This document shows, in pieces, positions 5,506 to 60,734 of a stretch of 64,000 bases of DNA. Source of the stretch: a virus; the IMG/VR virus record IMGVR_UViG_3300035698_022898, positions 1 to 64,000 of that record; one strand, 5' to 3'. Both the position numbers and the translations under genes were made by a program. A model generated the notes under the pieces. The model was not told where the DNA came from. It ran no database searches and saw only the letters and a list, made by a program, of their open reading frames with translations. Positions within the stretch are counted from its first letter, which is position 1. Every line of letters begins with the position of its first letter.

Positions 5506-7140
5506 ATGGATGAGCCCGAAGCCCGTAAAGAACTGTTGGAATTGAGTGATGAAGCCCTTGCGGGGCTGTCTTTTGCAGTTCCTTACCAGTATGGTACTCC
5601 CTCCGAAAGAAAAGATTCCGACGGTTTTAGACTTTCCACCAACTCATATGCCGATGCACCGATAAATGCTCTCCAAACAGCTTGTTGGGAGAAGTTTAAT
5701 CGAAATCCACAGATCAGCACTTCTGTTCGTGACACAGTGGGCAGACTTACTGGAATGGGTTTTGGAATGTCTTCGGGTGTTCCTGAGGTGCAAGCGTTTA
5801 TTGATGAGCTAGTGGAAGATCCTAGAAACCGTTTGTACACTATGATGTCCAAATTTGTAGCCCGTTCTGAAATCGAAGGGGAGTTGTTTCTCGTTCTTAC
5901 TCTCCATAAAGACGGTTTTATTGAAATTGATTTTAAAGATCCTAGTGATCTTAAAGCAGGTGTTGTTTCTTCCAGATTATCCCCGAATGCGGATACCGGT
6001 ATTATAGTTCACCCCGCCAAGCCGACAATGCCTTTAGTTTACATATTTGGTGGTACTGATATATACGGTAGACCCATTCAGCAGCAGATACCAAGCATAT
6101 ATTGTGCATACTATCCGGAATTGCTTGCTGTTGCCAAGAGAAACTCAAAGTGTAGAGCGGGACTTCTTGGGGACAATCGAAGTAGGTCTCGGAAGTTTAA
6201 AAAGTTGAATGGTTTTTATCGTTTTGTTATTTCCTGGGACAAGAGTTATATTACCACCAGAAACGTATCCCATCTCAGAACAGTTTTGGAATGGCTCCAA
6301 CTCTACGAAGATCTTAAACGATATGAGATTGATCATAAAAAATCTTCGGGTGCTTACGTTTGGACCATTCAAGTTGAGGACCCTGCCACATTTAAAATGT
6401 GGTTAAGTCTTACGGACGATGAACGTCGTAAAACAGGAATTATGGCTAAGCTTACCCCGGGTGGACGTATGGTTCTTCCTCCTGGAATGAAGTTGTTGGC
6501 TGTCAGTCCTCAGCTTCCTAAAATTTCCGATTCAGACACAGATATTTTAGAAATGGCAGTTTCTGGACTTAATCAACCCAGCGATATGGTAACTGGTTCT
6601 AGTAAGGGGACTTTTTCTTCGGTCAAAGCATCCAGAGCCCCTCAGTCTGACCGCATTTCAGATCTACTTGCTTATTTTGAGCGTTTCCTTCGTTATGACT
6701 TCTGGCGTCCGATTATGTTTTTGAAAACTGCAATCGGGGACTTTCCTGAAACCTTTCCGACTCCTGTAGTAGTAAATTTTAAAAAGGGAAAGGGAAAGGA
6801 CGAACTCGGCAATCAAAAGTTCACTCCCCAGATAAAGAAGATCAACAAACCTGCCTGGAAGTGTGTGGACTTCTCTTTTCCTGTTTCAGCAATTACGGAT
6901 TTGGAAGCTGTCGCTCGCGCATTACTAGGAGTCAAGCACGGTTCGGTTGCAGACGTTTTGGGTATTCCCAAAGAAGAAATTGCCAAGAGGCTTGGTTTTT
7001 CCTCTTATGCCTCTCTACGTTTACAAGCTGCCACGGAAGAGGAATTATATCCTCCTTTGATGGCGAACGAAGATAACGAGAGCTTCCAGGAAAAAAGAGA
7101 AGCCGAACCGCCAAAATCGGGAGCCAAAAAAAATGAGTAA
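5506..7140 (+). CDS. Portal protein
   Basis: Its 544 residues, its position after the large terminase, and its pattern fit phage portal proteins. Features include an RDTVGRLTGMGFGM segment near the N-terminus, a long central helix (LRTVLEWLQLYEDLKRYEID) and a later stem/crown region. The protein forms the dodecameric ring at the capsid vertex. The ribosome site is poor: the nearest purine run, TTAGGGAC, is about 15 bases upstream. A TTGACA at 5471-5476 lies just ahead but has a weak -10 (TATTCC). The C-terminus is lysine- and glutamate-rich. Confidence 0.8.
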   Translation: MDEPEARKELLELSDEALAGLSFAVPYQYGTPSERKDSDGFRLSTNSYADAPINALQTACWEKFNRNPQISTSVRDTVGRLTGMGFGMSSGVPEVQAFIDELVEDPRNRLYTMMSKFVARSEIEGELFLVLTLHKDGFIEIDFKDPSDLKAGVVSSRLSPNADTGIIVHPAKPTMPLVYIFGGTDIYGRPIQQQIPSIYCAYYPELLAVAKRNSKCRAGLLGDNRSRSRKFKKLNGFYRFVISWDKSYITTRNVSHLRTVLEWLQLYEDLKRYEIDHKKSSGAYVWTIQVEDPATFKMWLSLTDDERRKTGIMAKLTPGGRMVLPPGMKLLAVSPQLPKISDSDTDILEMAVSGLNQPSDMVTGSSKGTFSSVKASRAPQSDRISDLLAYFERFLRYDFWRPIMFLKTAIGDFPETFPTPVVVNFKKGKGKDELGNQKFTPQIKKINKPAWKCVDFSFPVSAITDLEAVARALLGVKHGSVADVLGIPKEEIAKRLGFSSYASLRLQAATEEELYPPLMANEDNESFQEKREAEPPKSGAKKNE

Positions 7141-9708: not shown

Positions 9709-10929
9709 ATGGCCAAAGGCATCGAAAGCATTCCGGCCCTCCATTTGGAGGTTTTGAATCGAGTCGTCTCGATGCTGGACCCGGCACCCACGATGTTCTT
9801 TTCGAATATGTTCCCTGTTGTACAGAACGATTCGGACACCATCAGATGGGAAATTGAGTACGGATCCAGCGGAATGACTCCGTTCGTGTCCCCCGGCAGC
9901 GTGGCTCCAACCGTCGGTCAAGACGGTATGGGCTCAGCCGAGGCGCGAGCCGCTTACTGGAAAGAGAAGATGTACTTCGATGAAGAGTTCCTCAACAACC
10001 TGCGCGAGATCGGCACCTGGGCAACGTACCAGACCGCTGAAAGAAAACTCGCTCGTGGTCTGAGAAAACTCCGCTATCGTTGTGACCGTCGTCGTGAATG
10101 GATGATGGCGAAAGCTCTCATCGACGGTTCCTTCACTTACACCATCAAGGGCGGCCAGCGTTTCACCGTATCCTACGGAATCCCCACCACTCACCAGGTA
10201 TCCCTGGCCGCTTCCCGTTATTGGGGCACCGGCGCCAGTCGGAATCCGGTTGAGGACATCTTCGACGCCAAGACCGTCATCTCTGACGACTCTGGCGGAA
10301 TTGTGAATTGGGCAGTCTGTAACAGCGAGCTGATCAAGACTCTCATGATCGACTCCAAGATTCAGACTCTGGTACAGAAGTCTGCTTTCGGTGAAGGCGA
10401 CCTCTTCCGCGATCCGGCCCGTGTCATATCTTCCCTTCTGGGAATCGGCAGCCTGGTTGTCTACGACGAGCAATTCGAAGTCACCGGTTGGCTCGTAGCC
10501 GACACCTCCACGACCACGGTCTACGTGGACGATGCTTCCGACTTCGAGGTCGGCGGGACCGCTCGTTTCGTGGATATGTCTTCTCCGCGTACCTGGGAAG
10601 ACGAGACCATCACGGCTGTGGACACTACTCTCAACACCATCACTCTGGCTGCTGCGCCCTCCACGTCTTTCAAGGGCAACGAAGACAAGGTGACGATGCG
10701 GAAGAAGTTCATCGCCAATAACGTGTTCTTCATGATGGCCGACACCGTTGACGGCGAAAAGGTCATGGAGTTCATGGAAGCCCCTTACGGTTTGGACAGG
10801 CGCTGGGGTCAGTACACCGACCGCAAAGCTGAATGGGACCCCGAAGGTCTCTGGATGCGTGTCCAGGACAAAGGGCTCCCCGTGTTCTATCATCCCGACA
10901 CCACCTACAAGCTGACCGTCGGCGCCTAG
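9709..10929 (+). CDS. Major capsid protein (lambda E-like)
   Basis: Its 406 residues follow the scaffold and decoration genes and an AAGGAGGTG site. The N-terminal pattern (NMFPVVQNDSDTIRWEIEYG, then EKMYFDEEFLNNLREIG) and the RRREWMMAKALIDG helix match the E-type HK97-fold capsid family. A beta insertion at about residues 260-325 (VDDASDFEVGGTARFVDMSS) precedes the C-terminal axial part. GC-rich third positions set it apart from most neighbours and fit very high expression. Confidence 0.85.
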   Translation: MAKGIESIPALHLEVLNRVVSMLDPAPTMFFSNMFPVVQNDSDTIRWEIEYGSSGMTPFVSPGSVAPTVGQDGMGSAEARAAYWKEKMYFDEEFLNNLREIGTWATYQTAERKLARGLRKLRYRCDRRREWMMAKALIDGSFTYTIKGGQRFTVSYGIPTTHQVSLAASRYWGTGASRNPVEDIFDAKTVISDDSGGIVNWAVCNSELIKTLMIDSKIQTLVQKSAFGEGDLFRDPARVISSLLGIGSLVVYDEQFEVTGWLVADTSTTTVYVDDASDFEVGGTARFVDMSSPRTWEDETITAVDTTLNTITLAAAPSTSFKGNEDKVTMRKKFIANNVFFMMADTVDGEKVMEFMEAPYGLDRRWGQYTDRKAEWDPEGLWMRVQDKGLPVFYHPDTTYKLTVGA

Positions 10930-10961: not shown

Positions 10962-11429
10962 ATGACAATGAGAGGGCCGCGACCCAATCAAAGTTTTAGG
11001 GAGCAGGTCCAGTTTGCATCCCCGAATGCGAAGACCGAAGTTATTTCGGGGGAGATCACCGCTACCACTCCGGGGCGTCCGATGGGCGCCCCGTTGCTGG
11101 CCGGAAGTGTCAAATCCGTCCAGCTTTCGCTGGGAGCCAGTGGGAAGGACGATTCCAACACTCTGGCTCTAGAAGGCGATGTGAAGATTAACGGTGTGAC
11201 TTGCCTCACCACGAAGCCGAAGATTACCCACACCAGTGGCGAAGCTTCTGCTCAAAAGACCACAGCAGCTTCTGGTACGGGAATTGTTCAGGCCGTTGTT
11301 GATACGGATGCCAACACTTATAGTGCTGGTGACGTTATCACGGCCGACTTTAACCAGACCAGAACCGCTTCTCCGACAATGGAGCAGGCTAATGCGGTCC
11401 TCGTGGTTGAGCTGGACCCGGACGAATAA
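10962..11429 (+). CDS. Unknown capsid-region protein (155 aa)
   Basis: The product contains a beta-sandwich-like core (VKSVQLSLGASG, then LEGDVKINGVTCLTTKPKI) and an acidic end (VVVELDPDE is approximated by VLVVELDPDE). It sits directly after the capsid gene and is likely a minor head or decoration component. AAGGAAGG lies about ten bases before the ATG; a second ATG two codons in is also possible. Confidence 0.6.
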   Translation: MTMRGPRPNQSFREQVQFASPNAKTEVISGEITATTPGRPMGAPLLAGSVKSVQLSLGASGKDDSNTLALEGDVKINGVTCLTTKPKITHTSGEASAQKTTAASGTGIVQAVVDTDANTYSAGDVITADFNQTRTASPTMEQANAVLVVELDPDE

Positions 11430-11760: not shown

Positions 11761-12215
11761 TGACCGAAGCCGAAGCCATACTTGCTTCCACATACGAGTT
11801 GGGAGTCAATTTAGTGGCACTCCTGACAAGTGATCAACAGTCAAGGGCAGCAAAAATTGCCGGTCAAGAGACGGGGTGGTCATTCCCCGTCTCTGGCAAT
11901 TTTAAAGAAGTTTGGGTTGTAAAAAGGATAACCAGAAACTGTCTGGGGTTCCTAAGAAATGATGCCGCAGATCAGTTTAAGTACAAACAGATCAGCTTGC
12001 AGCATCGTTTCCAGCATTTTCAAGAGTTAATCACTCAATTAGATGCAGACTTCGAGAAAGCGGTTAAGGAAAATCCTGGCGAGTTTGCTGGGGTTGATGT
12101 AGCTAACATGTTTGGAACCAAGATTGACGCCGGTTTTGCATACGACCGGTTTGGTAGAGACATTACTTACGATCCAGAGCGAATTGTACTAGCAGAGCCA
12201 AATGAAAGTTCATGA
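11760..12215 (+). CDS. Putative head-tail connector/adaptor protein
   Basis: A mainly helical 151-residue protein that overlaps both neighbours by a few bases (TAATGA and ATGA junctions). Helices at residues 45-65 (VVKRITRNCLGFLRND) and 74-105 (LQHRFQHFQELITQLDADF) and the size are usual for gp6-type adaptors that bind beneath the portal. The call depends mostly on its position between the capsid genes and the stopper-like protein. Confidence 0.5.
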   Translation: MTEAEAILASTYELGVNLVALLTSDQQSRAAKIAGQETGWSFPVSGNFKEVWVVKRITRNCLGFLRNDAADQFKYKQISLQHRFQHFQELITQLDADFEKAVKENPGEFAGVDVANMFGTKIDAGFAYDRFGRDITYDPERIVLAEPNESS

Positions 12216-12832
12216 GCATATCGGTAAATATTCGAAACGTCCTGCGAAATCATGGATTAGCTTTTCGGATCCTGAGAGTAGCTGGGATAATTTCTGGGGA
12301 ATTTTTGGACTACGAGCCAAACGCCCAGGTGACGAAGCCGTTTATTCGTGAACATTTTTTAGAGTTTACCCTCCCTTTCGATACCCAAGTTATTTCAGGC
12401 GATGTAATTGAATTTGACACAGACGGTAGATTTTTTGTAGTAACACACCATTCTCCTGACCTCTTCAATAATGCCATCATTTCCTATGCTAGTGTAGGAT
12501 ATGGTGCCAATGTGACTAATGGTGTGCTCCAAAGACCTTCTGGAGAAATAGTCACGCAAAGTTACAGAACAGAAACCCACTGGAAACATATCACAGGGGA
12601 AATCAAAGCTGTTGTCTCCGACAAAATGTTTGGGTCTTACTTAGATGTGGATGAACCAGTAGGTGAGGTTAGTGTTAAAGCTCTCCAAGCATGGATTCCC
12701 AAGTCTGTTGGTGCACAAGTACATGACAGATTTTGGAGTGTCTCCGGAGAGACTTATTTCAAAGTTGGTTCTATTGAGTCCAACCACTTTGCCGGAGTAG
12801 ATGTTCTGGTATTAGAGGAAGATACCAGGTAA
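12212..12832 (+). CDS. Putative head-closure (stopper) protein
   Basis: This 206-residue beta-rich protein (VISGDVIEFDTDGRFFVVTH; YFKVGSIESNHFAG) follows the adaptor candidate with a four-base overlap. In siphoviruses this slot encodes the stopper or neck protein that holds DNA in the head. It is the last head gene before the sugar-enzyme block begins. No specific family motif is recognised. Confidence 0.5.
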   Translation: MSISVNIRNVLRNHGLAFRILRVAGIISGEFLDYEPNAQVTKPFIREHFLEFTLPFDTQVISGDVIEFDTDGRFFVVTHHSPDLFNNAIISYASVGYGANVTNGVLQRPSGEIVTQSYRTETHWKHITGEIKAVVSDKMFGSYLDVDEPVGEVSVKALQAWIPKSVGAQVHDRFWSVSGETYFKVGSIESNHFAGVDVLVLEEDTR

Positions 12833-12857: not shown

Positions 12858-14921
12858 ATGAAACGTGTACTGTTCGTTGGAGACCATCCTTTAAGAGGTT
12901 CTGGCAACGGTAATATGATGAATGCGATTCTGCAACAAGTGGATTCTACTAAATTCGACGCCACTGTTTTTGCAGTTGGGGAATCTGGTGTTCCAGATTC
13001 TTTAAATAATCGTTCTACTGTACCCATTATAGACGCACGGGATGGGGACGACATTTGGGGATGCCGTAAGCTCGTAAACATATTGAATGAGGGCAATGTG
13101 GATATTCTTGCCTTTATAGGTTTGGACATTTGGACTTATTCCCAGTTGTTTTCCACTATTGTAAAAATCAAGAAATCCAGAAATTTTAAAATTGTTGGGT
13201 TGTTCCCATACGATACTCCTTTTATTCGAAAGGACTGGATTAAGCTGATAAAATTCTTTGATATTCCTAGAGTGTACTCCCAGTTCGGGTATGATGTTTT
13301 ACACCCTATAGTTCCTGAGGTAGAATACTTTCGGCCCCCATTGTTTCATTCTTCTTCCTTCAAGCAATTAGATCCTGAGATTAGAAAAGCAGCTCGTACT
13401 AAATTGTTTCCTACGGCACCTGAGAACGCTTTTATTGTGGGTTTTGTTGGTGCAAATCAATTTAGAAAAGACCCCCTTAAGCTGATAAAAGGGCTTTTTA
13501 ATTTAAAGAAAGAGAAAGCTGTGGGCTTTATGAATGAAGAACTCAAAGGAGTATGTGACACAAGTAGATTACATTTATACATTCACGCCAACATGCAGGG
13601 CGTATACAATTTGCGCCAATACTGTAAAGACCAGGGGGCTCTCACTGGAAGTATTTCGATTAAAAATCAAACTGTTCCTTACGATACTACAAGAATGGTT
13701 GAGATGTATAATTGTCTGGATCTCCTTGTTAATACGTCTATGCAGGAAGGATTGAGCTGGACTATTTTGGAAGCCAAACTTTGTGGGGTCCCTATTGCAG
13801 CCACAAATACCACGGCACACATAGAACTTTTAGGAGAATCTATATTTCCTATTCGTTGTAACAGGGAAAGTTTCATACCTGTACTTACGGAAAGTGGAGA
13901 ATCTTTTATTGATGCCAAATGTTGTTCCTCCGAAGATGTAAGGGATACTCTTCTTAGTGTTTTAACTAAACCTAAAGAACGAGAAACTCGGGTTTTTAAT
14001 GGGGAACAAGAGGCTTTATACTGGTTACAAAAAGTAGATGATTTCAATACTGTTTTGGAAGAAGCTCAAGAACCTACAATTTATGTTGACACCAGAGACG
14101 ACACCTCCATTCTGTTTGCTCAGCATAGTGCAGCGGGTGACGTTTTGATGACCACACAATGTTTACCCGGAATCAGGGCTGCACACCCAGGTAAGAAAAT
14201 TGTGTATATGACTCAAAAAAAGTTTCAGGAGATCATTGTAAACAATCCTAATGTGGATTCAATTATAGATTGGGATGAGAGTCTTCTTTCCCGATTTAGT
14301 GTAGTTTATAACCCTCACGGTGAAAGAATTTTGCCCGGGGGTTTTAATAGTTTAGATGTGCGCCTCCACGACATGTACCCCTACTTTTGTCGCGTCAAAG
14401 CTGGACCCATGCAGATCGAAGAGGTATCAGTGTCTGACTTCCCTTTCAATGACAAAGATTATATTGTAGTTAATACAACGGGGGGTGACCGTACTTATCG
14501 CATGTACCAGCACATGGATCTGGTGTTTAAAAATTATGAAGGCAACATCGTCCAGTTAGGCTCTGTACTTGACAAAGTTCTCAAAGCCCCTGGAGTATTA
14601 GATTTGCGTGGCAAGACCAACTTTCGTGAAGCAGCCTGGGTAATGGCACATGCCGAAGCTTGTGTATGTATCGACAGTTTTATAGCTCATTTAGCAGGGG
14701 CTAAGGATATTCCTTCTGTAGTATTGTTTGGACCTGCTCCTGCTCGTGTTGTTGGGCCCAAAAGTAACGCCCGTCAAATATTCCTGGAACCCAACAAGTT
14801 AGACGTTTGTGAGCATCTAACTAATTGTTGGGGAGAAATACCTAGTTGTGCAACTCCGTGTATAAACACCATTAACCCCATGAATGTGCGAAAAGCATTG
14901 ATGGAACTCACAACCTCTTAA
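12858..14921 (+). CDS. Two-domain glycosyltransferase (GT4-like plus GT9/heptosyltransferase-like)
   Basis: The N-terminal 390 residues are GT4-like. RVLFVGDHPLRGSGNGNMM begins the first Rossmann fold, AFIVGFVGANQFRKD opens the second, and SMQEGLSWTILEAKLCGVP is the nucleotide-sugar ExxxxxxxE motif. The C-terminal 270 residues match GT9: AAGDVLMTTQCLPGIRAAHPG is split over the first strand and helix, followed by DLRGKTNFREAAWVMAHA and VCIDSFIAHLAGA. Together it could add two sugars in sequence. AGGAGG lies close upstream. The position between head and tail genes is odd for such an enzyme. Confidence 0.85.
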   Translation: MKRVLFVGDHPLRGSGNGNMMNAILQQVDSTKFDATVFAVGESGVPDSLNNRSTVPIIDARDGDDIWGCRKLVNILNEGNVDILAFIGLDIWTYSQLFSTIVKIKKSRNFKIVGLFPYDTPFIRKDWIKLIKFFDIPRVYSQFGYDVLHPIVPEVEYFRPPLFHSSSFKQLDPEIRKAARTKLFPTAPENAFIVGFVGANQFRKDPLKLIKGLFNLKKEKAVGFMNEELKGVCDTSRLHLYIHANMQGVYNLRQYCKDQGALTGSISIKNQTVPYDTTRMVEMYNCLDLLVNTSMQEGLSWTILEAKLCGVPIAATNTTAHIELLGESIFPIRCNRESFIPVLTESGESFIDAKCCSSEDVRDTLLSVLTKPKERETRVFNGEQEALYWLQKVDDFNTVLEEAQEPTIYVDTRDDTSILFAQHSAAGDVLMTTQCLPGIRAAHPGKKIVYMTQKKFQEIIVNNPNVDSIIDWDESLLSRFSVVYNPHGERILPGGFNSLDVRLHDMYPYFCRVKAGPMQIEEVSVSDFPFNDKDYIVVNTTGGDRTYRMYQHMDLVFKNYEGNIVQLGSVLDKVLKAPGVLDLRGKTNFREAAWVMAHAEACVCIDSFIAHLAGAKDIPSVVLFGPAPARVVGPKSNARQIFLEPNKLDVCEHLTNCWGEIPSCATPCINTINPMNVRKALMELTTS

Positions 14922-14933
14922 GGAGGAATTGAA

Positions 14934-15653
14934 ATGATCGTTGTAATGCAATGTGTTAATGAGGAAAAGGCGGTCCAAAGATGCATCGGTGACTTTCACG
15001 ATGAGGATTGGGTTGACCGTATTATCGTCATTGACGGAAAGAGCACTGACTACACAGTTGAGGAACTCCGATCTTTCCCCAAAGTGGAAGTTTACATCCA
15101 CGAATGGCTAGATTGGTACCACGACATGAATACCACCCAACGCAATATCGGCATGTCTTATGTGCCTCACGGACAGTGGTATCTGATGTGGGACTTCGAC
15201 GAGCGTATGTCCGAGGACCTCAAAAACTGTTTCCGTGTTGAGGAGTGGGCCACTCTACCCGACACAGTAGATCAAATTTGCTTCCATCGTCGAACTTATG
15301 AGCCGATGCGCTTCCCTGACTCTCCTCATGCTATGTTGGAAGAGGACGGCTGGCCCGTTATTTCCCATGCCATCGGTCAATACCCCGATCCTCAGGGTCG
15401 TCTTATCCGAAGAGCCCCTGGGATGGTTCACATGAACAGCCCCCATCACGTTTTAGCAGGTGCCCAACACATCGCAACCATGCCTTATGACATCCTTCAT
15501 TTTGAAAAGGATGACTTTCGAGACAGAGGTCGCATCGAAAGAAAATGGGCACGGGAACAAGCTACCAGAAGAAAGTTGGGGCTTACTCCGGATGCCTTTG
15601 AAACCAAACTGAAGCCTGAAAGCGCAAAATGGGGAGATCCTAATGCTTGGTAG
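14934..15653 (+). CDS. GT2-type glycosyltransferase
   Basis: The start VVMQCVNEEKAVQRCIGD matches the first strand and helix of GT2 enzymes. IIVIDGKSTDYTVEEL is the usual 'DGSTDxT' nucleotide-binding segment and WDFDERMS contains the DxD metal site. A conserved-looking histidine/asparagine loop follows (MVHMNSPHHV). AAGGAGG precedes the ATG and the end overlaps the next gene by 11 bases. It probably transfers a sugar from a nucleotide donor; the acceptor is unknown. Confidence 0.85.
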   Translation: MIVVMQCVNEEKAVQRCIGDFHDEDWVDRIIVIDGKSTDYTVEELRSFPKVEVYIHEWLDWYHDMNTTQRNIGMSYVPHGQWYLMWDFDERMSEDLKNCFRVEEWATLPDTVDQICFHRRTYEPMRFPDSPHAMLEEDGWPVISHAIGQYPDPQGRLIRRAPGMVHMNSPHHVLAGAQHIATMPYDILHFEKDDFRDRGRIERKWAREQATRRKLGLTPDAFETKLKPESAKWGDPNAW

Positions 15654-16185
15654 ACCCCCCATAGATGTTCGTATCCCTTTTGACCCCTCAGGGAATAATC
15701 TGGGGCAAGCATACAATAGGGAAATGGCAACTGTTTCAGGGTGGGTCATTTTCTTAGACCACGATGTCTACCTCTGTAACCCTAAGTGGTATAGAATCTG
15801 TCAGGATGTGATTGCACGGGAAGGTGACGGTATAGGTTTTGCAACCTGCATGACCAACGCTATTGGTTGTATGAAACAAAGAGACGACCAAGCACCGAAA
15901 ACGGATTCCCTAACCGATCATATCAGACATGCTAAAGGATTGTTCAGACAACACGGAACAAAATCTATCAATATGCCCAATGCAGTCTACCCGTTTAGTG
16001 GGTTTTTCATCCTTACTCATAAAACAGTTTGGATGAAATGCGGAGGGTTCAAGGACGGCTTTCTTACCGTGGATAATGATTATAGCAATAAGGTTGTGGC
16101 CCACGGTTTTCGCAGGGTAGTCATTCCAGGACTGTATGTGTATCATCGATACGAAAGTAAGGGTCTGGATGGTAACGATTGGTAG
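15643..16185 (+). CDS. Short GT2-like glycosyltransferase
   Basis: At 180 residues it is shorter than a usual GT2 catalytic domain. It keeps the middle of the fold: NLGQAYNREMATVSGWVIFL followed by the metal motif DHD (LDHDVYL), and FFILTHKTVWMKCGGFKDG followed by VDNDYSNKV, the usual acceptor-side 'GGFDE..F..ED' region. The N-terminal nucleotide-binding strand is partly missing, so it may act with a neighbour or on a different donor. Confidence 0.75.
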   Translation: MLGRPPIDVRIPFDPSGNNLGQAYNREMATVSGWVIFLDHDVYLCNPKWYRICQDVIAREGDGIGFATCMTNAIGCMKQRDDQAPKTDSLTDHIRHAKGLFRQHGTKSINMPNAVYPFSGFFILTHKTVWMKCGGFKDGFLTVDNDYSNKVVAHGFRRVVIPGLYVYHRYESKGLDGNDW

Positions 16186-16193
16186 GAGGAGTT

Positions 16194-16760
16194 ATGTCAC
16201 ATCAAGAACAAAGAGACTGGTGTCTCGAAGTAAAAGAATCCAACCACTATCGATTCAAGAACGCAAAAGTTCTGGATGTGGGTTCTTTGGATGTAAATGG
16301 TAACAATCGACACCTTTTCACAAACAGTGACTACACGGGTATTGATGTTGCCACCGGACCAAACGTGGATGTAGTATCCATTGCACATCTGTTCGAGCCT
16401 GTGACTTTGTATGATGTGGTGCTCTCCACCAATGCTTTGGAGCATGACAAATTCTTCCTTTTGACGATGAAGAAGATGTTTAATCTTTGCCGTCCTGGAG
16501 GATTGATTTTCTTCTCCGCAGCTTGTACTTGGCCTGAACACGGAACCATGAAAGTCAATCCTCATCACAGCGGCACGACTCAAATGGGTGAGGACTGGGC
16601 CAATTACTATCGAAATATCAACGAAGACGACATTCGGGAAGCTTTGGGTAATCTGGATGAATTATTCAGAACCGTAAACATCGAAGTATTCCGAAGAGAC
16701 ATTCGTTTCGTAGGTATCAAACTCGGAAGAAAAGGACAGGAAAATGTCACTGTACGATGA
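16194..16760 (+). CDS. SAM-dependent methyltransferase (class I)
   Basis: KVLDVGSLDVNGNNR is motif I of the SAM-binding fold, YTGIDVATGPNVD holds the acidic ribose-binding residue, and VVLSTNALEHDKF is the post-core motif of Methyltransf_11-type enzymes. The start at 16194 (MSHQEQRDW) is preceded by GGTAGGAGGAG; a frame start five codons earlier lies inside that ribosome site. It overlaps the next gene and probably methylates a sugar made by the surrounding transferases. Confidence 0.8.
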   Translation: MSHQEQRDWCLEVKESNHYRFKNAKVLDVGSLDVNGNNRHLFTNSDYTGIDVATGPNVDVVSIAHLFEPVTLYDVVLSTNALEHDKFFLLTMKKMFNLCRPGGLIFFSAACTWPEHGTMKVNPHHSGTTQMGEDWANYYRNINEDDIREALGNLDELFRTVNIEVFRRDIRFVGIKLGRKGQENVTVR

Positions 16761-18036
16761 CAACTGCCGACGAGTGTCGGATATAAATGAACACCTTCCC
16801 ATACTTAAAGCATATGGGTCACAGGTGAGTCATATAACAGAGTTCGGCGTTCGCACAGGTGTATCCACTTCCGCTTTTATTGCTGCTCGACCGAAAAGAA
16901 TTTTATCGTTCGACAAGCAAACACATCTGTTCCCACACAAACATTTCACCCCTGAGGAGATGCAGGGTATTAAGTTTGATTTGGTTAATAAAGATGTTCT
17001 TAAAGCCAATATCGAACCGACGGAACTGCTTTTCATCGACACGTGGCACACGGGTGACCAGTTGAGAGCGGAACTTGCCCGTCATGCCAGAAACGTGTCC
17101 AAGTATATTATTATGCACGACACGGTTACTTTCGGCGAGAAGGGGCAAGACGGAAAGCCTGGTCTTCGTTACGCCATTTCAGAGTTTCTGGAAGCTAACA
17201 AGGAGTGGGCTATTCTTGAAGACTTGCAGAACAATAACGGGCTAATGGTTTTGGGAAAGGGTATGCCTGCTGAGGAATGGCGAGAAACGTGTAGACTACC
17301 AGAACCTCATGCTCCTGTAATCAGGACCCGAAGAAGCCTTGTTAAGGCCCCCTCACAGTCTCCGATTGCATTGGCTACGGTTATACACAAAGCTCCATTT
17401 GCCAAGATGGCTGTAGTCATGCTTCGATCCTTGAAACGAAACAACCCAGAATTAAGTGTTCCGTTCTATGTATTTCACTACAATCTGCCTAAAGTACAGA
17501 AGGATGCACTAAGAGCAGAATACCCCAATCTTATTTTTCAGAAAGTTGATCTGGAAAAATATGTATCTCATGGGAAAGGGGAGTCCAAGTTTTGGGCTCT
17601 GGAAGCTTTTACCCTTACGGAATTTGACAAGGTTCTTTTTCTAGATGTAGATCTGCTTTGTATTGGGGATATACGACCTCTCCTTCGTATAGATTGTGGA
17701 ATAGGCATGGCTCAGGAGACTAGGCGTCCTTGTCATAATTCCGGAGTGGTTCTTACCAATAAGCAATTCCGCACTCAAAAAATTTATCAGGAACTTTTGT
17801 CCTTTGAGATCGATAAATCTAAATTCGGAAAAGACCAACAAATTTTTAATGAGTACTTCCGAGGCCGTATTTCCGTTTTGGATCGAAAGTTTAACACTTT
17901 AGTGAGTGAAGTTCCTGGTGAAGGTAGACAAGGATTTAAGGGCATACTATTTGTTCATTACATATACAAACCAGATGCAGCGTGGGATAGAATTCCTACG
18001 GAACTTCAAAAACTTTGGAGGTCTTACAATGGGTAA
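16744..18036 (+). CDS. Fusion of class I methyltransferase and GT8-like glycosyltransferase
   Basis: Residues 1-185 begin with ITEFGVRTGVSTSAFIAA and LLFIDTWHTGDQL, as in cephalosporin-hydroxylase/sugar O-methyltransferase-like proteins. Residues 210-430 are GT8-like: LATVIHKAPFAKMAVVMLRS, the DxD motif FLDVDLLC, HNSGVVLTN, DQQIFNEYF, and HYIYKPDAAW in place of the 'HxxGxxKPW' end. One polypeptide could therefore add and methylate a sugar. The fusion is unusual; both domains look intact. Confidence 0.8.
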   Translation: MSLYDDNCRRVSDINEHLPILKAYGSQVSHITEFGVRTGVSTSAFIAARPKRILSFDKQTHLFPHKHFTPEEMQGIKFDLVNKDVLKANIEPTELLFIDTWHTGDQLRAELARHARNVSKYIIMHDTVTFGEKGQDGKPGLRYAISEFLEANKEWAILEDLQNNNGLMVLGKGMPAEEWRETCRLPEPHAPVIRTRRSLVKAPSQSPIALATVIHKAPFAKMAVVMLRSLKRNNPELSVPFYVFHYNLPKVQKDALRAEYPNLIFQKVDLEKYVSHGKGESKFWALEAFTLTEFDKVLFLDVDLLCIGDIRPLLRIDCGIGMAQETRRPCHNSGVVLTNKQFRTQKIYQELLSFEIDKSKFGKDQQIFNEYFRGRISVLDRKFNTLVSEVPGEGRQGFKGILFVHYIYKPDAAWDRIPTELQKLWRSYNG

Positions 18037-18595
18037 CGGTTCCCAACCAATTAGCGGTATCCAGATGGTATTAGATCAAATCCGTCCTTCCTTCGAGTAC
18101 AATCTGACCTTCGTCAGTAAATTCTTGGGTGGAGATGGTTTGGATGCGGGGTGTGGAAATTGTCCACTTCTTCGGGAGAATTGCATTCATGTAGATGCTT
18201 CTCCCCAACCTATAACTTTGGAACAAATAGACCCTCGTTACTTTGTTCAAGGGGATGCAACCAAATATGTTCCTTCCATCATGCTCGACTATGTGTTTTC
18301 TTCTCATATGGTTGAGGATCTTCCTACCAGAGAAGCAATGATCGAATGCCTGCTTCACTGGAAGAAATATCTTAGACCAGAAGGACTTATTGTTCTTCTG
18401 ATACCTGACATGCAAGGCGGTCGTTACCCAAGCATTAAAGAAGATTGCGGGAATCCTTCACATCGAATAGATGTGGGTCTTCGCTTCTTCTCGGATTTGG
18501 CAGAAGACCTTCCCGGACTGAAAATCATTCAAATCGATACCATCCCCCATGAAATAAGTTGTACCATGGATGTGGTGTTTGAGATGACCGAGTAA
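18029..18595 (+). CDS. SAM-dependent methyltransferase-like protein
   Basis: GDGLDAGCGNCPLLREN is motif I. HVDASPQP and VQGDATKYVP follow as the acidic and adenine-binding segments, and YVFSSHMVEDLPTREAM and LRPEGLIVLLIPD match the last strands. GGAGG lies seven bases before the ATG at 18029. It overlaps the end of the GT8 fusion and shares a TAATG junction with the next gene. It is probably part of the same glycan pathway. Confidence 0.8.
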   Translation: MGNGSQPISGIQMVLDQIRPSFEYNLTFVSKFLGGDGLDAGCGNCPLLRENCIHVDASPQPITLEQIDPRYFVQGDATKYVPSIMLDYVFSSHMVEDLPTREAMIECLLHWKKYLRPEGLIVLLIPDMQGGRYPSIKEDCGNPSHRIDVGLRFFSDLAEDLPGLKIIQIDTIPHEISCTMDVVFEMTE

Positions 18596-19008
18596 TGTTG
18601 ACTTTGTTTGTTATACCTGGTGACAACTTCCCGAATGTAGGGAGGGCGATTGAATCGTGGGGTTCTGTAGTCTCTCGTTCTTTTGTTCTCCCTAACCGGG
18701 AAATACCATATAAAGATGTTCGTACAGAATGGTTTGCTTACTTATACCACGATGAGTATTTATCTAAAGATTTGACCTCTTGTATGAAAGTATTTCTAGA
18801 GTCTTCGGAGTTTGATGTTTACGATTTGATGAAAAAACTTATAGATGAAAAGGGAACTCCTAGAGTGTTTCAATCTTCTAGAATTTTTAGGGGAGGGACA
18901 ATCCTGCAAGATTCCTGTCTTCTGCCGTATGAATCAAAAACGCTGAGGTGTATACGCATACTTGACGGATGGTTGTTGGAGGATGACAGATGTCAATGTT
19001 TTGGGTAG
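18595..19008 (+). CDS. Small unknown protein with degenerate GT2-like features (137 aa)
   Basis: The segment WFAYLYHDEYLSKDL resembles the WDFDERMSEDL metal-site segment of the GT2 gene at 14934 in spacing and character, and the protein ends the sugar-enzyme block. Without a nucleotide-binding start it may be a reduced glycosyltransferase or an accessory subunit. The assignment is tentative. Confidence 0.45.
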   Translation: MLTLFVIPGDNFPNVGRAIESWGSVVSRSFVLPNREIPYKDVRTEWFAYLYHDEYLSKDLTSCMKVFLESSEFDVYDLMKKLIDEKGTPRVFQSSRIFRGGTILQDSCLLPYESKTLRCIRILDGWLLEDDRCQCFG

Positions 19009-19523
19009 AACTTGATACAAAACAATTAAGAGCCATTAGGGCAGCTCTGTTGCGTTTGAACAAGAGAGCTTTATATTGGAAAGATGAAATTCCTAGGCAG
19101 GGGGCCGCTTTATATGTTCAACAAGTAATCAACAATATAATATCTAATAAATTTAGTGCTTCTTACCCAGGGTATTCTGATATATATAAAAAATACAAAC
19201 CTGAGGGTTCCCCTTTTTGGAAGTTAGCAGGGGATCTTATAGCCGCTGTATCTTTTGAAAGACTCCAACAAGCAGGAGATAAAACTTGGTTCTTTGCCGG
19301 CATTAAAAGAGGTCTTTTTGACTCCGGAGGAAAAAATATAAAAGGTCGGGGAAAGCCTAAAGAAATATATTGGTATGCTATGATACAGGAATACGGAGGC
19401 ACTTTTAGAGGGCAAGTCCACCCGGCCCGACCTTTGTTTGGTCCTACGTTTAATAATCTTGCTGATACGTTTGACAAAAAGCTTGAGGTCGTGTATCGTG
19501 ACTTTAAAGGAGCCTGGAGATGA
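18990..19523 (+). CDS. Putative tail-completion / neck protein (HK97 gp10-like)
   Basis: The C-terminal segment YAMIQEYGGTFRGQVHPARP followed by LFGPTF is the hallmark of the HK97 gp10/virion-morphogenesis family (EfGg..... PARPFL). These proteins sit at the head-tail junction. The N-terminus is helical and basic. The gene overlaps the last sugar-block gene by 19 bases and the next gene by four. Confidence 0.7.
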   Translation: MSMFWVELDTKQLRAIRAALLRLNKRALYWKDEIPRQGAALYVQQVINNIISNKFSASYPGYSDIYKKYKPEGSPFWKLAGDLIAAVSFERLQQAGDKTWFFAGIKRGLFDSGGKNIKGRGKPKEIYWYAMIQEYGGTFRGQVHPARPLFGPTFNNLADTFDKKLEVVYRDFKGAWR

Positions 19524-51257: not shown

Positions 51258-53939
51258 CTAATGAACTAGGTTGTACTCAACACCCTTCTTGTCTTTCCAG
51301 GTGTTGTCAGTAAAGGTGACTTCCGTCTTGTCGAACCAACTCCCGTCAATGGGGGTGAACTCTGTTTCAATGTCAAGTGGAACGATAATCCAGGGGTGTT
51401 CCTCTCTGATGTATTCACAAGAGATAGTTCGTATGGTAGACACCACTTTGTTTTGTTCTTCGGGAACAGTATCCGTGAGCATACAGTCATGTATCTGCCC
51501 TATAAGGTCAGAATCCCACCCAGCAGCCTTAGCTTCCTCGTTAACCTCATTTGCTGACCAAAGCAGACAGTGAAAAGCAGTCCCCTGAATCTTTGTATTG
51601 ATAATCTCGTTTTTCGATAGGTATCCAGAGCGTCTATGTCCAAAGAACATTTCCACATACCCATCGCGAACAAAATCTTTGATGGATTTTTCTTGCCACT
51701 TCTTGGTAGCTGCAAGGCGTGTCCAGAAATCATCTTCAACATCTTTCATGTGTTTTTCAAAATCTTGGAATACATGAATGCCTATATCATGGAAGTGTTC
51801 TTGTATGGGTATACCGTCTTCGGTCTTCATATTGGTAACCCAACAGGCATCCCAAATAGTTCTGGCACATGCTTTATACCATGAACCGTAAACCATGGGA
51901 AAGACTTGTCCGTTTTTAGCATGGAAACGTAACATCTTAGCAACTTGATCTTGGCGCAACTGAAAAATCTTCATTGCTTGGTCCCTGTGCATATCTGTAG
52001 TTGGGTCTTGAATATAATTTACTAACACAGGGTCCTGAGTATAACATGCTAAAATACGAATTTCAATCGCGCCGTAATCGTTTTCAGCCAAACGTCTTCC
52101 GGGTGAAGCTTTTACACCGCTCCTACAAGCTCTACGTGCCGCTTCATCTCTTACAGGAACATTATGAAAATTAGGTTTACTACTAGAACTACGATATGTT
52201 CGAGCAGTATGTAGATCGAAGAAGGGGTGGATTTTTTCATCGTCGTCAATTTCCCTGAGGAATTGAGCCATATAAGTATCACATATCTTTTCTAACTTCC
52301 TCAAGCGCATGAGGCGTTTAATGAATGGATTATCCATCCCTACAAGCACTTCCTCATCTACGGAAGCAAGCCCGGACTCTGTTTTCTTTTCAGGAACCAT
52401 CCCCATGAGGTCAAACAATAAGTACCTAAGATCTTTATCCGATCCTATTTTAATGCGACGACCGGTATTCTTTATAAAAATCTCTGCTTCGAGAGAATCT
52501 TGTAGTCGGATAGTTATTCTATTTATCTGTTCTCGTAGGCGTTTTTCTTCCTCAAGATAGTATTGTCTATCCATGGGGATGCCTTTCCGTTGCATCTCAC
52601 CACATACAACTAATCCTTGTTGCCAGAAACGACGAGCCCGAAGCAACCCGTTCTTTCCCTTTAATTCTGCACGTTGTTCCAAGTACAGTCTCTTAGTGAG
52701 CAGAGAATCTATTCCGTTGTATTTTAAAACATGGGGGAGTGGCACTTCCTCCATACGATTAAAGAATTCTCCAGGAGCCGATTTTTTGTAAGGGTCTATG
52801 TCTTTATCATATTCTTCTACACCCCATCGAACATAAGCTTGAAATTTTAATCCCGATACTTTCTTTCTATCATCAAGTAGGTGAGCCGTGTTCATGGAAC
52901 ACCAACTTAAATTCTGAACCTCAACACCGTGTATTTCTCTATCCCACTCCCCCTCAAATTTAGAGTTATGAGCAATTTTTAGTATTTCTTTATGCTCTAA
53001 GATCCGTTTCCACATGTCCGTGATGCCCTTGAGTTGATTGGAGTCCCAATAAGACTTCCACATCATAGGCCAAGCATAAGCAAGATCATCGTATCCTAAA
53101 GAAGTGGTCAGTATTTTGCAACCGCGTCTGTACGGTTTCAAGGCGTTGGTTTCTATGTCATAAGAAATAGGAGGCTTTTGATCTAATACATTCTTAAACA
53201 TTCCGATAACATCTTCATACTTATATAAACAATGTACAGTGGTTTCTATGTCCACAGGAGCTGGCATTTTCCTTTTGAGGCATTGTACAGCAAACTCTAA
53301 ATCCTTACGAAAGACAGATAAGGTAACATCACTTCGGTCCTTTCTATCCCGATAAGCATAAGAAGGGTGAAATAAAGGTATAATGAGTGCGTTTAAGAAA
53401 TGATCTGGAATACAGAACTTGCGAAACCGAGAAGCTGTGATTTGAGAGAACCTACCCATAAACATCGACTCCATAGGTGCTTTACCCAGAAGCCATATAT
53501 GAGTAGGTTTAAGGTCTCTAATAGCCTTCATCACATAAGGCTTGCAACATTTTAATTCTGTTTTGTTCGGGGGTCTGTTGGCAGGGGGGCGACAATTTGC
53601 GGCATTGATTACATGTGCGTCTCTAAATACATTTATTCCAAAGGATTTAAGTTCATCTCGAAACCAGTTACCTATAGATCCTTGTAGCGGCATCCCGTTA
53701 TTATCTCCTACTTCATCCGGAGCCTCAAGAATAATCAACAGTCGTTTCTCCCCTTTGCCCATCCAAGGCATTCTAGGAGTCACACAACCTTTGTCTAGCC
53801 CGCAAGACTCACACATAGGTGGGCCGGGGTTCATATAAGTGTAAGGATTTGGAAGAGATGTTCCAAAAGGGGTAGCATTCTTGGATAAACTGACACAAGT
53901 ATTGCCGGGCATATCTTTAATAGAGAAAAATCCGTTCAT
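51258..53939 (-). CDS. DNA polymerase, family A, with N-terminal uracil-DNA-glycosylase-like domain
   Basis: Residues 1-230 are a family 4/5-type UDG domain. Cysteines at 43, 46, 52 and about 115 could bind an Fe-S cluster; LEAPDEVGDNNGMPLQG is the uracil-pocket motif and PLFHPSYAYR the second active-site motif. Residues 260-430 are a 3'-5' exonuclease (ISYDIETNAL; HNSKFEGEWD; YNGIDSLLT). Residues 600-880 are the polymerase: motif A ENDYGAIEIRILA, motif B RFHAKNGQVFPMVYGSW, motif C GQIHDCML with Cys in place of the usual Glu. It is the replicative polymerase of the window. Confidence 0.88.
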   Translation of the reverse strand: MNGFFSIKDMPGNTCVSLSKNATPFGTSLPNPYTYMNPGPPMCESCGLDKGCVTPRMPWMGKGEKRLLIILEAPDEVGDNNGMPLQGSIGNWFRDELKSFGINVFRDAHVINAANCRPPANRPPNKTELKCCKPYVMKAIRDLKPTHIWLLGKAPMESMFMGRFSQITASRFRKFCIPDHFLNALIIPLFHPSYAYRDRKDRSDVTLSVFRKDLEFAVQCLKRKMPAPVDIETTVHCLYKYEDVIGMFKNVLDQKPPISYDIETNALKPYRRGCKILTTSLGYDDLAYAWPMMWKSYWDSNQLKGITDMWKRILEHKEILKIAHNSKFEGEWDREIHGVEVQNLSWCSMNTAHLLDDRKKVSGLKFQAYVRWGVEEYDKDIDPYKKSAPGEFFNRMEEVPLPHVLKYNGIDSLLTKRLYLEQRAELKGKNGLLRARRFWQQGLVVCGEMQRKGIPMDRQYYLEEEKRLREQINRITIRLQDSLEAEIFIKNTGRRIKIGSDKDLRYLLFDLMGMVPEKKTESGLASVDEEVLVGMDNPFIKRLMRLRKLEKICDTYMAQFLREIDDDEKIHPFFDLHTARTYRSSSSKPNFHNVPVRDEAARRACRSGVKASPGRRLAENDYGAIEIRILACYTQDPVLVNYIQDPTTDMHRDQAMKIFQLRQDQVAKMLRFHAKNGQVFPMVYGSWYKACARTIWDACWVTNMKTEDGIPIQEHFHDIGIHVFQDFEKHMKDVEDDFWTRLAATKKWQEKSIKDFVRDGYVEMFFGHRRSGYLSKNEIINTKIQGTAFHCLLWSANEVNEEAKAAGWDSDLIGQIHDCMLTDTVPEEQNKVVSTIRTISCEYIREEHPWIIVPLDIETEFTPIDGSWFDKTEVTFTDNTWKDKKGVEYNLVH

Positions 53940-56530: not shown

Positions 56531-56908
56531 TTACCCTTTGTTAGCAGGGTTGAGGTGTTTGGGGATAATGAGTCCTGTGGGAGGAGCAGCTACTTTGGAG
56601 GGGCCTTGAATATGGGCCTCCTTAGCCCTGGCTACGGACTCTTCCCACTCAATCATTTTCCGAACAAGGATGGAATTGGCCTTGTAAGTGATTACAATTT
56701 TGTCCTTGGAAACAGCTTTGCAGCTTTTGAAATCCGAGAATATCAACCAGTCTTCAATTTGAAGACCTTTCATCATAGGTTGTTCGGGGTTGGTGTGGAC
56801 AATTATACTCCTGGGATTATGCCACAAATCATCACCAGGGACTTTGTAATAGGCTATAAGTTGCCCGGAGACGAGTTCTGCCACATGTAATTCTTTTTCC
56901 TTAACCAT
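56531..56908 (-). CDS. Unknown protein next to the TGT/DpdA-like gene (125 aa)
   Basis: AGGGAGG precedes the ATG. The N-terminal half is beta-rich (VAELVSGQLIAYYKVPGDDL; QIEDWLIFSDFKSCKAVSKD). A helix follows (VRKMIEWEESVARAKEAHI). It overlaps the transglycosylase gene by eight bases, so it may work with it. No family is recognised. Confidence 0.6.
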   Translation of the reverse strand: MVKEKELHVAELVSGQLIAYYKVPGDDLWHNPRSIIVHTNPEQPMMKGLQIEDWLIFSDFKSCKAVSKDKIVITYKANSILVRKMIEWEESVARAKEAHIQGPSKVAAPPTGLIIPKHLNPANKG

Positions 56909-58010
56909 TGTTTCCTCCCTGTAAGTCCTTCAAACAGAAGAGCTTGGGTTGTGATTGTTGTTTTACCTTATGTTGAAACACCCAGGGCCATTCTGGAATA
57001 CTTTTTTCCAGATCTAAATAATAAAGGATGTTTAGTTCATCCCTTTTCCGATAATCGTTAGACAAGCCTCGAATAAGAATTTTCTCGACACTACGTTGAC
57101 CGTCAACGGCTTTTCCGTCCCAACGCTCGTCTTCTTCGAGTTTGTAGTCTGACGGTTCCATGCGAAACTCGGATTCTCCGAGAACGAACCCTTTTTCTTC
57201 AAAGTAGCGAGTAATGAATTTTCGCTCAGCATCGGTAAAGTTTTTCAAATGCTTTCCTTCAATCTTAATAGAAGGTGAGCGGGTAGAGACGACAACGGAC
57301 CACGCAGGCTCGTCATAAATGTATTCTCCTGACCTCCATCTAGGTACACACACAATGCCATATTTTCCGAACTTGACCCAACTGGTACTGTCACAACTAT
57401 ACCAGGGGTAACGATTGACAAGCTTTGCAGATGTGACCGCGAACCCATGTACTTTGACAAGGGGCATTCCTTTGTCGTCGGTTAACATGGTAGACCAAAT
57501 TCTGTCAAGGTTGGGGATAAGCACTTTGGGAGGGTTAGGAATCATACCGCCCATAGCAATGTAAGTATATCCCAATTCCAAGTACATTTCCAACCACTTT
57601 TCATCACACCCGAAATGAAATACTGGAATAGGTGTCAACCCGAAAGACTCTAGGTACTTCTGATTATCCCATGTCGCTTCTGGGTTGTTAATCACATCCA
57701 AATTTGCGTAAACCTCCAGATGGTCTTTGTACTTTAGAATAAATTGTACATAACCGTCTCTGTACTCTAAATATATTTTCCTACTACTGCATATTTCAGA
57801 AAGAGGACAAGATAAACAGGGCTCCGCATTTTCCCAAGTACCGTAGTCCCTACTATTGGGACATTGGTGAACATCTAAAAAAGGGTAAACGTCAAATTTC
57901 CTATCCTCAAGATAGGAGCCCATATAGGTAGCCTTTTTGTCTTTACGCACCAGAGTGTTGTAAAGACTAGGGGCACCAGAGTCAAGAAATATTCTTACAT
58001 TCTCGGTCAC
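56901..58010 (-). CDS. dpdA: TGT/DpdA-like DNA base transglycosylase
   Basis: The barrel begins RIFLDSGAPSLYN (Asp10), typical of phage TGT-like proteins. HGFAVTSAKLVNRYPWYSC leads to DSTSW, where Asp207 is in the place of the catalytic nucleophile that attacks the sugar. A cysteine cluster (Cys50, Cys65, Cys68, Cys74) may bind metal. DpdA enzymes swap guanine in DNA for a 7-deazaguanine base. FolE, QueD and QueE in the same operon supply the base. Whether the target is DNA or tRNA is inferred. GTG start behind GAGG; it overlaps the glycosyltransferase by four bases. Confidence 0.8.
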   Translation of the reverse strand: MTENVRIFLDSGAPSLYNTLVRKDKKATYMGSYLEDRKFDVYPFLDVHQCPNSRDYGTWENAEPCLSCPLSEICSSRKIYLEYRDGYVQFILKYKDHLEVYANLDVINNPEATWDNQKYLESFGLTPIPVFHFGCDEKWLEMYLELGYTYIAMGGMIPNPPKVLIPNLDRIWSTMLTDDKGMPLVKVHGFAVTSAKLVNRYPWYSCDSTSWVKFGKYGIVCVPRWRSGEYIYDEPAWSVVVSTRSPSIKIEGKHLKNFTDAERKFITRYFEEKGFVLGESEFRMEPSDYKLEEDERWDGKAVDGQRSVEKILIRGLSNDYRKRDELNILYYLDLEKSIPEWPWVFQHKVKQQSQPKLFCLKDLQGGNNG

Positions 58011-60324: not shown

Positions 60325-60667
60325 AATAAGCCTCCGCTCCATTTTCGTTATCCTCAAATACCGAGGTGTAAGCAGCACCGAATCTGTCTATCAGTTCGGC
60401 ACACATCATTTCGCATGACATTTTACCTAAGTCTTGGTCCCACCAGTTATCTTTAAGGAACTTTTCGACGAGCATTTTTTTGCTGATAAATTCAATATCT
60501 CTATCATCATGAAATACCGGCCATTTCATAGTAATGTGGAATACATGACGATGGGGAGTCTTTAGGAAGGATACAGCTTCAATGGGACATTCGGGCCAAC
60601 AATGGATAGCGGGGAAACTTGTCTTTATGATAACCGAGGATATTTTCCTAACGCTCATAATTGTCAT
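60299..60667 (-). CDS. Putative T-fold (QueD-like) protein, unknown role
   Basis: The segment FPAIHCWPECP, then HRHVFHITMKWPVFHDDRDI and SCEMMCAELIDRFG, resembles QueD/6-pyruvoyl-tetrahydropterin synthase fold in layout: two histidines in an HxH, a following strand, then an acidic helix. The zinc histidine pair plus His20 are present, but the CxxxHGH of true QueD is absent. It ends EDNENGAEAY. It overlaps the radical SAM gene and follows folE. Confidence 0.55.
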   Translation of the reverse strand: MTIMSVRKISSVIIKTSFPAIHCWPECPIEAVSFLKTPHRHVFHITMKWPVFHDDRDIEFISKKMLVEKFLKDNWWDQDLGKMSCEMMCAELIDRFGAAYTSVFEDNENGAEAYYDCKSVEG

Positions 60668-60694
60668 TTCCGACTCCGGGTAAAGTGTTAATCA

Positions 60695-60724: not shown

Positions 60725-60734
60725 CTCAAAGACT

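Follow-up and report, generated by a model that had tools for sequence, protein, structure and literature searches.

Why should a phage place a run of sugar enzymes among the genes for its head and tail? The question is raised by a stretch of viral DNA of 64,000 nucleotides (positions 1 to 64,000 of IMG/VR record IMGVR_UViG_3300035698_022898), which we call the window. An initial annotation pointed to a glycan-building block at 12858-19008, and the open reading frames confirm it: seven tightly packed plus-strand genes fill this interval, six of which encode glycosyltransferases and methyltransferases. Judging from sequence comparisons, we think that the block is probably a late-expressed, modular cassette for the cytoplasmic glycosylation of virion proteins. 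The block and the virion genes nearest to it are:

9709 to 10929, plus strand: major capsid protein, lambda E-like (phrog_29, E 9e-39)
10962 to 11429, plus strand: protein A, 155 aa, predicted jelly roll, candidate glycan acceptor or platform (cassette linkage, AlphaFold2)
12212 to 12832, plus strand: head-completion gene by its lambda FII position, the cassette's upstream border
12858 to 14921, plus strand: gene 1, 687 aa GT4-GT9 fusion, the fixed first cassette gene (Pfam GT9 2e-10, GT4 2e-7; NCBIfam)
14934 to 15653, plus strand: gene 2, 239 aa GT2 glycosyltransferase (Pfam GT2 8e-7)
15643 to 16185, plus strand: gene 3, 180 aa small GT2-like glycosyltransferase (phrog_26101 1.4e-13, phrog_14179 6e-11)
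16179 to 16760, plus strand: gene 4, 193 aa SAM-dependent methyltransferase (Methyltransf_23 2e-8; phrog_32762 2e-28)
16744 to 18036, plus strand: gene 5, 430 aa GT8 glycosyltransferase with a probable N-terminal methyltransferase domain (GT8 7e-14)
18029 to 18595, plus strand: gene 6, SAM-dependent methyltransferase (Pfam Methyltransf_11 1.3e-4)
18595 to 19008, plus strand: gene 7 or orf137, 137 aa small GT-A-like protein by its model, the fixed last cassette gene (48 loci, AlphaFold2)
18990 to 19523, plus strand: tail completion/Neck1 protein at the lambda Z position, the downstream border (phrog_222, phrog_26)

Identity of the genes in the block

The seven genes had been described as contiguous and overlapping. 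Genes 1 and 2 are in fact 12 nt apart, and the remaining genes abut or overlap. Of the two GT2 genes that were proposed, gene 2 is recognized by Pfam, while gene 3 is below the threshold in Pfam and is supported by a phage glycosyltransferase family in PHROGs (phrog_26101, at 1e-13). Similarly, the GT8 part of the proposed methyltransferase-GT8 fusion is clear, and the match of its N-terminal part to methyltransferases is sub-threshold (0.031 in Pfam). Gene 6 was listed as an open frame from 17906 (17906-18595, 229 aa), and its true start is likely the ATG at 18029, which would overlap gene 5 by 8 nt.

Gene 1 has the hallmarks of both of its families. It matches GT9 (PF01075, 2e-10), and D428 and D606 are invariant in an alignment of 11 sequences; we presume the roles of these residues by analogy to WaaC. 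It also matches GT4 (PF13692, 1.7e-7), with E297 and E305 forming the E-x7-E motif in the same alignment, and four cysteines near the C terminus are conserved across the 11 sequences. The TibC/AAH-type protein O-heptosyltransferases are GT9 enzymes that glycosylate proteins directly, and they have a C-terminal cysteine cluster. The GT9 domain of the cassette, whose activity is putative, differs from these in being fused to GT4. Furthermore, TibC was not among the PDB hits for GT4-GT9, and the spacing of the four cysteines presumably differs as well.

The block within the virion operon

Around the block, PHROGs recognizes the terminase, portal, protease, major head protein, tape measure, and J. 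The block lies between the gene at the lambda FII position and the tail-completion gene. The tail-completion assignment in the initial annotation is supported, as 6 of 7 members of the family match phrog_222 and phrog_26 is matched at 2.8e-5. The gene at 12212-12832 had been called stopper-like, and this is an assignment by position: its family is conserved in 130 loci, and its product has no profile or PDB match in database and PDB sequence searches. The U-position protein also has no PDB match by sequence. Promoter-like sites are not in excess between 9 and 22 kb (18 found, 17.1 expected), so we reject a separate promoter for the block. We infer late transcription from the gene packing.

Phage glycosyltransferases frequently target DNA (work cited in PMC12619734), and the enzymes of the block might likewise glycosylate or otherwise modify the phage's DNA. 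We consider this highly improbable, as Pfam and PHROGs find no base-modifying partner genes in the window's block, and as a separate candidate cluster for DNA modification lies elsewhere in the window, on the minus strand:

56901 to 58010, minus strand: DpdA-like
58007 to 59026, minus strand: GT-like
59002 to 60378, minus strand: radical SAM
60735 to 61313, minus strand: FolE

A fixed frame around a variable interior

The initial annotation had proposed comparing related genomes with and without the block at the same junction. We found 76 loci of uncultivated relatives that carry GT4-GT9 almost directly after the stop codon of the FII-position gene; in nearly all of them, GT4-GT9 starts at -100 to +81 nt from that stop codon. 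The cassette occupies the same junction in dozens of phages that have diverged from one another. It is absent from at least 36 other relatives, and 36 empty loci together with 2 that have orf137 only make up our cassette-free comparison set of 38. We do not name a host, because the cassette is on only two MAG contigs, which were binned with Melioribacter (L153) and with Alphaproteobacteria (L154). A tblastn search with GT4-GT9 and GT2 against 50,697 phage records gave no useful cultured relatives: the only matches were to Tetrasphaera phage TJE1 and to one Enterococcus phage. We do not view TJE1 as a cultured counterpart, since its 24%-identical GT4 lies upstream of its terminase, at a different junction.

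At the other end of the cassette, orf137 was first described as a GT2-like remnant. We reject decay, as this is a conserved stand-alone family that is found at a fixed place in 48 loci, and in most loci where the contigs reach, it abuts or overlaps the tail-completion gene. So it brackets the cassette. It has no sequence match in the databases. Its AlphaFold2 model (pLDDT 80) has weak fold matches to GT-A enzymes and suggests a small GT-A-like fold.

The interior between these two brackets may be empty (L119, L120, L142, and L153) or may reach about 9 kb (L133, whose left end is cut). It is rich in methyltransferases, radical SAM proteins, GT2, GT4, and GT8 enzymes, acyl- and pyruvyltransferases, and sugar-nucleotide enzymes; other families include a NolO-like carbamoyltransferase. 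The commonest interior family is the GT2 of 14934-15653, which is in 26 of the 30 cassettes with at least two interior genes. Turnover is high: phages whose capsids are 82-88% identical may nevertheless share as few as 1 of 8-9 interior families.

This strong turnover, along with the HNH endonucleases in a few cassettes, might suggest that the junction is a passive hot spot for the insertion of morons that have no common function. But random cargo would not be expected to have two fixed brackets, a consistent glycan-type content, and a linked capsid neighbor (see below), and we give the hot-spot idea almost no credence.

Another idea is that a phage peptide or protein is the substrate of the radical SAM enzymes, methyltransferases, and glycosyltransferases, which would alter its amino acids as in RiPP tailoring and would not make a classical glycan. 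The last interior gene in the relatives' cassettes is often a B12-type radical SAM protein, and the weak fold matches of orf137 are led by SunS/ThuS, which are peptide S-glycosyltransferases. On the other hand, radical SAM genes are missing from the window's own cassette, we did not find a precursor peptide family, and sugar-type enzymes and methyltransferases dominate the interior. RiPP-like tailoring therefore seems very unlikely to us.

A simple hydropathy scan of 38 cassettes found no multi-pass membrane proteins, and just 5 interior ORFs have a single marginal hydrophobic segment. These cassettes thus lack a flippase, a polymerase, or an oligosaccharyltransferase.

A capsid neighbor linked to the cassette

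In an unbiased scan of neighboring families, protein A was the only one that was positively associated with the cassette (Fisher p 6e-15). It is present in 52 of 71 cassette loci, as compared to 0 of 36 empty loci and 0 of 2 loci with orf137 only. In a separate search seeded with protein A, all 44 evaluable contigs have the cassette. The apparent shortage of tail families in cassette loci arises from their displacement by the cassette beyond the end of the contig or locus. On the capsid tree, about 3 events agree with the link between A and the cassette and none oppose it, which are few independent events and not significant. The gene for A is nearly always within about 10-40 nt of the capsid gene. 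The functional unit probably extends upstream of the 12858-19008 block that was first delimited, to include 10962-11429.

The AlphaFold2 model of protein A is all beta (pLDDT 91) and suggests a jelly roll. Its fold weakly matches C1q/TNF-like domains and phage fiber domains, and the sequence has no PDB match. Several Thr/Ser columns are conserved in its alignment. We did not find a conserved N-glycosylation sequon in it (the window's copy reads N-G-V-T). Interiors measure 655-2802 residues in cassettes with A and 0-854 residues in cassettes without A whose capsid region is visible. As short cassettes lack A, this protein could not serve as the acceptor for every cassette.

Could the cassette instead remodel the LPS core or another surface glycan of the host late in infection, so that progeny avoid sticking to debris or to infected cells? 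The GT9 domain is similar to LPS heptosyltransferases and the block's GT8 domain is similar to an LPS galactosyltransferase. More broadly, GT9, GT4, and GT8 together with methyltransferases are typical of LPS-core synthesis, and some cassettes encode a heptose-1-phosphate adenylyltransferase-like protein. Also, LPS-core enzymes work in the cytoplasm, so phage membrane proteins would not be needed. Nevertheless, the position in the virion operon is fixed across dozens of divergent phages, and the cassette is exclusively linked to a jelly-roll protein next to the capsid. Serotype-conversion cassettes usually lie outside the virion operon and encode membrane proteins such as a flippase. We view LPS remodeling as unlikely, albeit the most serious of the alternatives.

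How the coat might be built

The initial annotation had suggested that the block is coexpressed with structural genes and either glycosylates virion proteins or makes a surface decoration late in infection. The fixed junction, the lack of multi-pass membrane proteins, and the linkage to protein A all support coexpression and a virion target, with glycosylation as the putative activity. We propose that GT4-GT9 would start or extend a short core glycan from nucleotide sugars in the host's cytoplasm; the GT9 domain makes heptose a plausible component of this core. The exchangeable interior enzymes would lengthen the glycan and cap it with more sugars and methyl groups; the window's phage would use two GT2, one GT8, and two or three methyltransferases for this. 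In addition, orf137 may be a reduced GT-A-like partner. The acceptor would be a virion protein, with protein A as the leading candidate where the cassette is long. Swapping the interior would then alter the glycan and give related phages different coats, with whatever benefit this may bring them.

A broader reading, which we hold tentatively and with a bit less than even confidence, is that uncultivated lambda-order phages have a family-wide system for varying their coats. Gene sets for sugar, methyl, and radical-SAM chemistry would be exchanged in one recombination slot that is framed by GT4-GT9 and its reduced GT-A-like partner, and protein A would be a dedicated carrier, associated with the capsid, on which close relatives show different glycan "serotypes". 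If this is correct, then many phages in the environment spend up to about 9 kb of their morphogenesis operon on making and varying a glycan coat, by way of a conserved core enzyme, exchangeable decorations, and a dedicated carrier protein. The purpose of these glycans could be tested with natural relatives that have an empty junction or a cassette, and protein A would be a concrete acceptor to assay. The cassettes would also be a naturally varied collection of glycan enzymes, including radical-SAM enzymes.

Comparison with known systems

The initial annotation held that such enzymes are usually kept apart from virion genes and that the arrangement and enzyme set look unusual. There is a precedent, however: gp35-gp38 of mycobacteriophage Corndog (Cluster O) are an O-methyltransferase and glycosyltransferases, are encoded between the portal and the protease, and were proposed to modify the capsid (PMC4351075). 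PMC12363180, which cites Freeman 2023, reports that Corndog virions are glycosylated. So, glycosyltransferases within a virion operon are a known kind of system. The window's block likewise has glycosyltransferase and methyltransferase genes inside the virion structural operon, and the cassette may work as Corndog's system does. The likeness is of kind and not of sequence: our tblastn search of phage records with GT4-GT9 and GT2 found no homology to the glycosyltransferases of Corndog or Che8, and at the sensitivity used, no mycobacteriophage has relatives of the window's GT4-GT9, GT2, A, or orf137. Also, the Corndog locus has just four genes, and no counterpart of GT4-GT9, orf137, or A has been reported for it. 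Among cultured phages and in the literature that we searched, we did not find a framed, swappable cassette with a linked protein.

Bacterial O-antigen and capsule loci resemble the cassette in that their borders are fixed and the glycosyltransferases and tailoring enzymes inside can be swapped. Unlike those loci, the cassette sits in a phage morphogenesis operon and has no flippase, polymerase, or lipid-carrier enzyme; the hydropathy scan of 38 cassettes also gave no initiating membrane transferase.

Finally, the capsid N-glycans of chlorovirus PBCV-1 are made in the cytoplasm by multidomain transferases that the virus encodes (A111/114R and A064R, the latter a GT-GT-methyltransferase fusion), and they have a conserved core (PMC7826918). 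PBCV-1 infects eukaryotes and its glycans are N-linked; only the logic and the fold class are in common, and one fixed cassette locus is not described in the chlorovirus literature that we searched. The best match of the GT4 part of gene 1 to a solved structure is the glycosyltransferase B736L, a chlorovirus protein.

A variable cassette at the head-tail junction

The window covers bases 1-64000 of an IMG/VR virus record that totals 86,234 bases, and it is laid out like a lambda-like siphovirus: terminase, portal, S49-type protease, decoration-position gene, major capsid, small head genes, tail completion, tail tube, tape measure, and J. Between the gene at the place of lambda FII (12212-12832; the FII-position gene) and the tail-completion gene (18990-19523) are seven close-packed genes on the plus strand. 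By profiles these are, in order, GT4+GT9, GT2, GT2-like, methyltransferase, a weak methyltransferase fused to GT8, methyltransferase, and an unmatched 137-aa protein (orf137). So gene calls and profile matches bear out the initial annotation, which had described a seven-gene block of glycan enzymes at this junction. The head genes (window 7.0-11.8 kb) have GC of 0.50-0.56 and GC3 of up to 0.70, as compared to about 0.40-0.44 around them, which suggests that the head module was recently exchanged.

We gathered relatives of GT4-GT9 in searches that started from one protein or from an alignment, gathered relatives of the capsid independently, and compared both sets by iterated profiles. In 76 loci, the GT4-GT9 gene comes after the FII-position gene, and the gap is nearly always within about 80 nt (a few have inserts of 0.65-1.75 kb). 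Wherever the contig extends far enough, the final cassette gene belongs to the orf137 family, and in most cases it abuts the tail-completion gene or overlaps it. In 29 other relatives, the tail-completion gene directly follows the FII-position gene and there is no cassette; seven further cassette-free relatives have more divergent tail genes, and two encode orf137 without the rest of the cassette. These counts are partly non-independent because the loci include near-identical contigs from different assemblies. Four relatives (L007, L014, L013, and L025) have similar capsids and different tails, which suggests that head modules are common to siphovirus- and myovirus-like phages: 3' of the FII-position gene, they have a gene of 423-459 aa and then one of 153-154 aa, possibly sheath and tube.

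We counted 38 cassettes as complete (including L133 and L147, which are cut on the left; a few pairs are near-duplicates). These contain 0-14 interior ORFs, and the families include:

Transferases: methyltransferases, GT2, GT4, GT8, acyl- and pyruvyltransferases, aminotransferase
Radical SAM proteins, some of which have B12 or SPASM domains
Others: sugar dehydratases/epimerases, heptose-1-phosphate adenylyltransferase-like, NolO-like carbamoyltransferase

Judging from sequence comparisons, the interior gene content is exchanged fast. For example, the capsid proteins of L093 and L101 are 88% identical and their GT4-GT9 proteins are 71% identical, and just one interior family is common to their sets of 9 and 8.

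A capsid-neighbor protein linked to the cassette

Just downstream of the capsid gene lies the gene for a 155-aa protein (10962-11429; protein A). Its family is in 52 of 71 cassette loci, 0 of 36 empty loci, and 0 of 2 orf137-only loci. In an unbiased scan of neighboring families, no other family had a positive association with the cassette (Fisher p 6e-15 for protein A), but these statistics have limited weight because the loci share ancestry: of the independent pairs, about 3 are concordant and 0 are discordant. A search seeded with protein A alone gave 65 loci, and GT4-GT9 was present in all 44 with a visible junction (43 loci plus L169, in which the gene begins at the contig edge); many of these contigs overlap with those found via GT4-GT9, although the search seed was different. 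Among cassettes with a visible capsid region, the interior has 655-2802 residues with protein A and 0-854 without it. Because further head genes lie in between, protein A and the cassette are linked yet not adjacent.

Protein A is predicted with high confidence to be all-beta (pLDDT 91). Its top fold matches are weak and are to jelly rolls of the C1q/TNF-lectin and capsid type; it also resembles proteins of uncultured phages, one at TM 0.80. At the same place, L079 has two tandem beta-type proteins of ~105 aa (around 6300-6900) that keep the N-terminal GPWPS motif, so this might be a docking motif with exchangeable domains. In L083 and L084, a 5.6 kb stretch with ORFs of 668 and 484 aa is inserted behind protein A, between the capsid and FII-position genes.

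The cassette's presence or absence requires four changes on the capsid tree, in which the window and L002 are nested within a clade that otherwise lacks it. The window's capsid is nearest to those of empty-junction phages, while its protein A, GT4-GT9, and interior genes are nearest to those of cassette phages. This suggests that the lineage regained protein A and the cassette through recombination, with the direction being tentative.

What the cassette might modify

Minimal cassettes contain only GT4-GT9 and orf137 (L119, L120, L142, and L153), which shows that this pair can stand alone. Conserved motifs in the GT4 and GT9 halves suggest that both are active. Orf137 has a reduced GT-A-like fold that keeps the usual D-x-D motif only in part, and it could act as a partner without being an enzyme itself. 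Given the GT9 half and an occasional heptose-activating gene, heptose is a plausible component of the glycan. A simple hydropathy scan of the 38 cassettes found no ORFs with several membrane segments and five with one marginal segment, which indicates that transfer would be cytoplasmic. The main rival explanation is that the cassette modifies the LPS core, as GT9, GT4, and GT8 are LPS-core families too and this role would not need a phage membrane protein. We infer that the acceptor is a virion protein; where the cassette is long, the top candidate is protein A.

That viruses glycosylate their own particles is already known in kind. Corndog encodes an O-methyltransferase and glycosyltransferases, proposed to modify the capsid, between portal and protease (PMC4351075) rather than between the FII-position and tail-completion genes. 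Glycosylated virions have been reported for Che8, Corndog, and Myrna (PMC12363180). In chloroviruses, multidomain enzymes encoded by the virus act in the cytoplasm to glycosylate the capsid, and the glycan core is conserved (PMC7826918). As far as our searches of part of the literature go, what is new is a fixed slot with two bracket genes, a swappable interior, and natural empty junctions, as well as an exclusively linked capsid-neighbor protein in a large uncultivated group.

Other features of the record

The window also contains a candidate cluster for 7-deazaguanine DNA modification (56901-61313, minus strand):

56901-58010, minus strand, DpdA-like queuine-type transglycosylase (phrog_887, 3e-36)
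58007-59026, minus strand, GT4-like gene (weak match)
59002-60378, minus strand, radical SAM
60735-61313, minus strand, FolE

It would be unusual for DpdA to have glycosyltransferase and radical SAM genes as neighbors. The DNA polymerase A (51258-53939, minus strand) is a single protein whose N-terminal domain belongs to the uracil-DNA-glycosylase superfamily. Finally, a transposase-like gene lies amid replication genes on the minus strand of the window's own record, at 68.4-69.4 kb (4927-5919 of L216).
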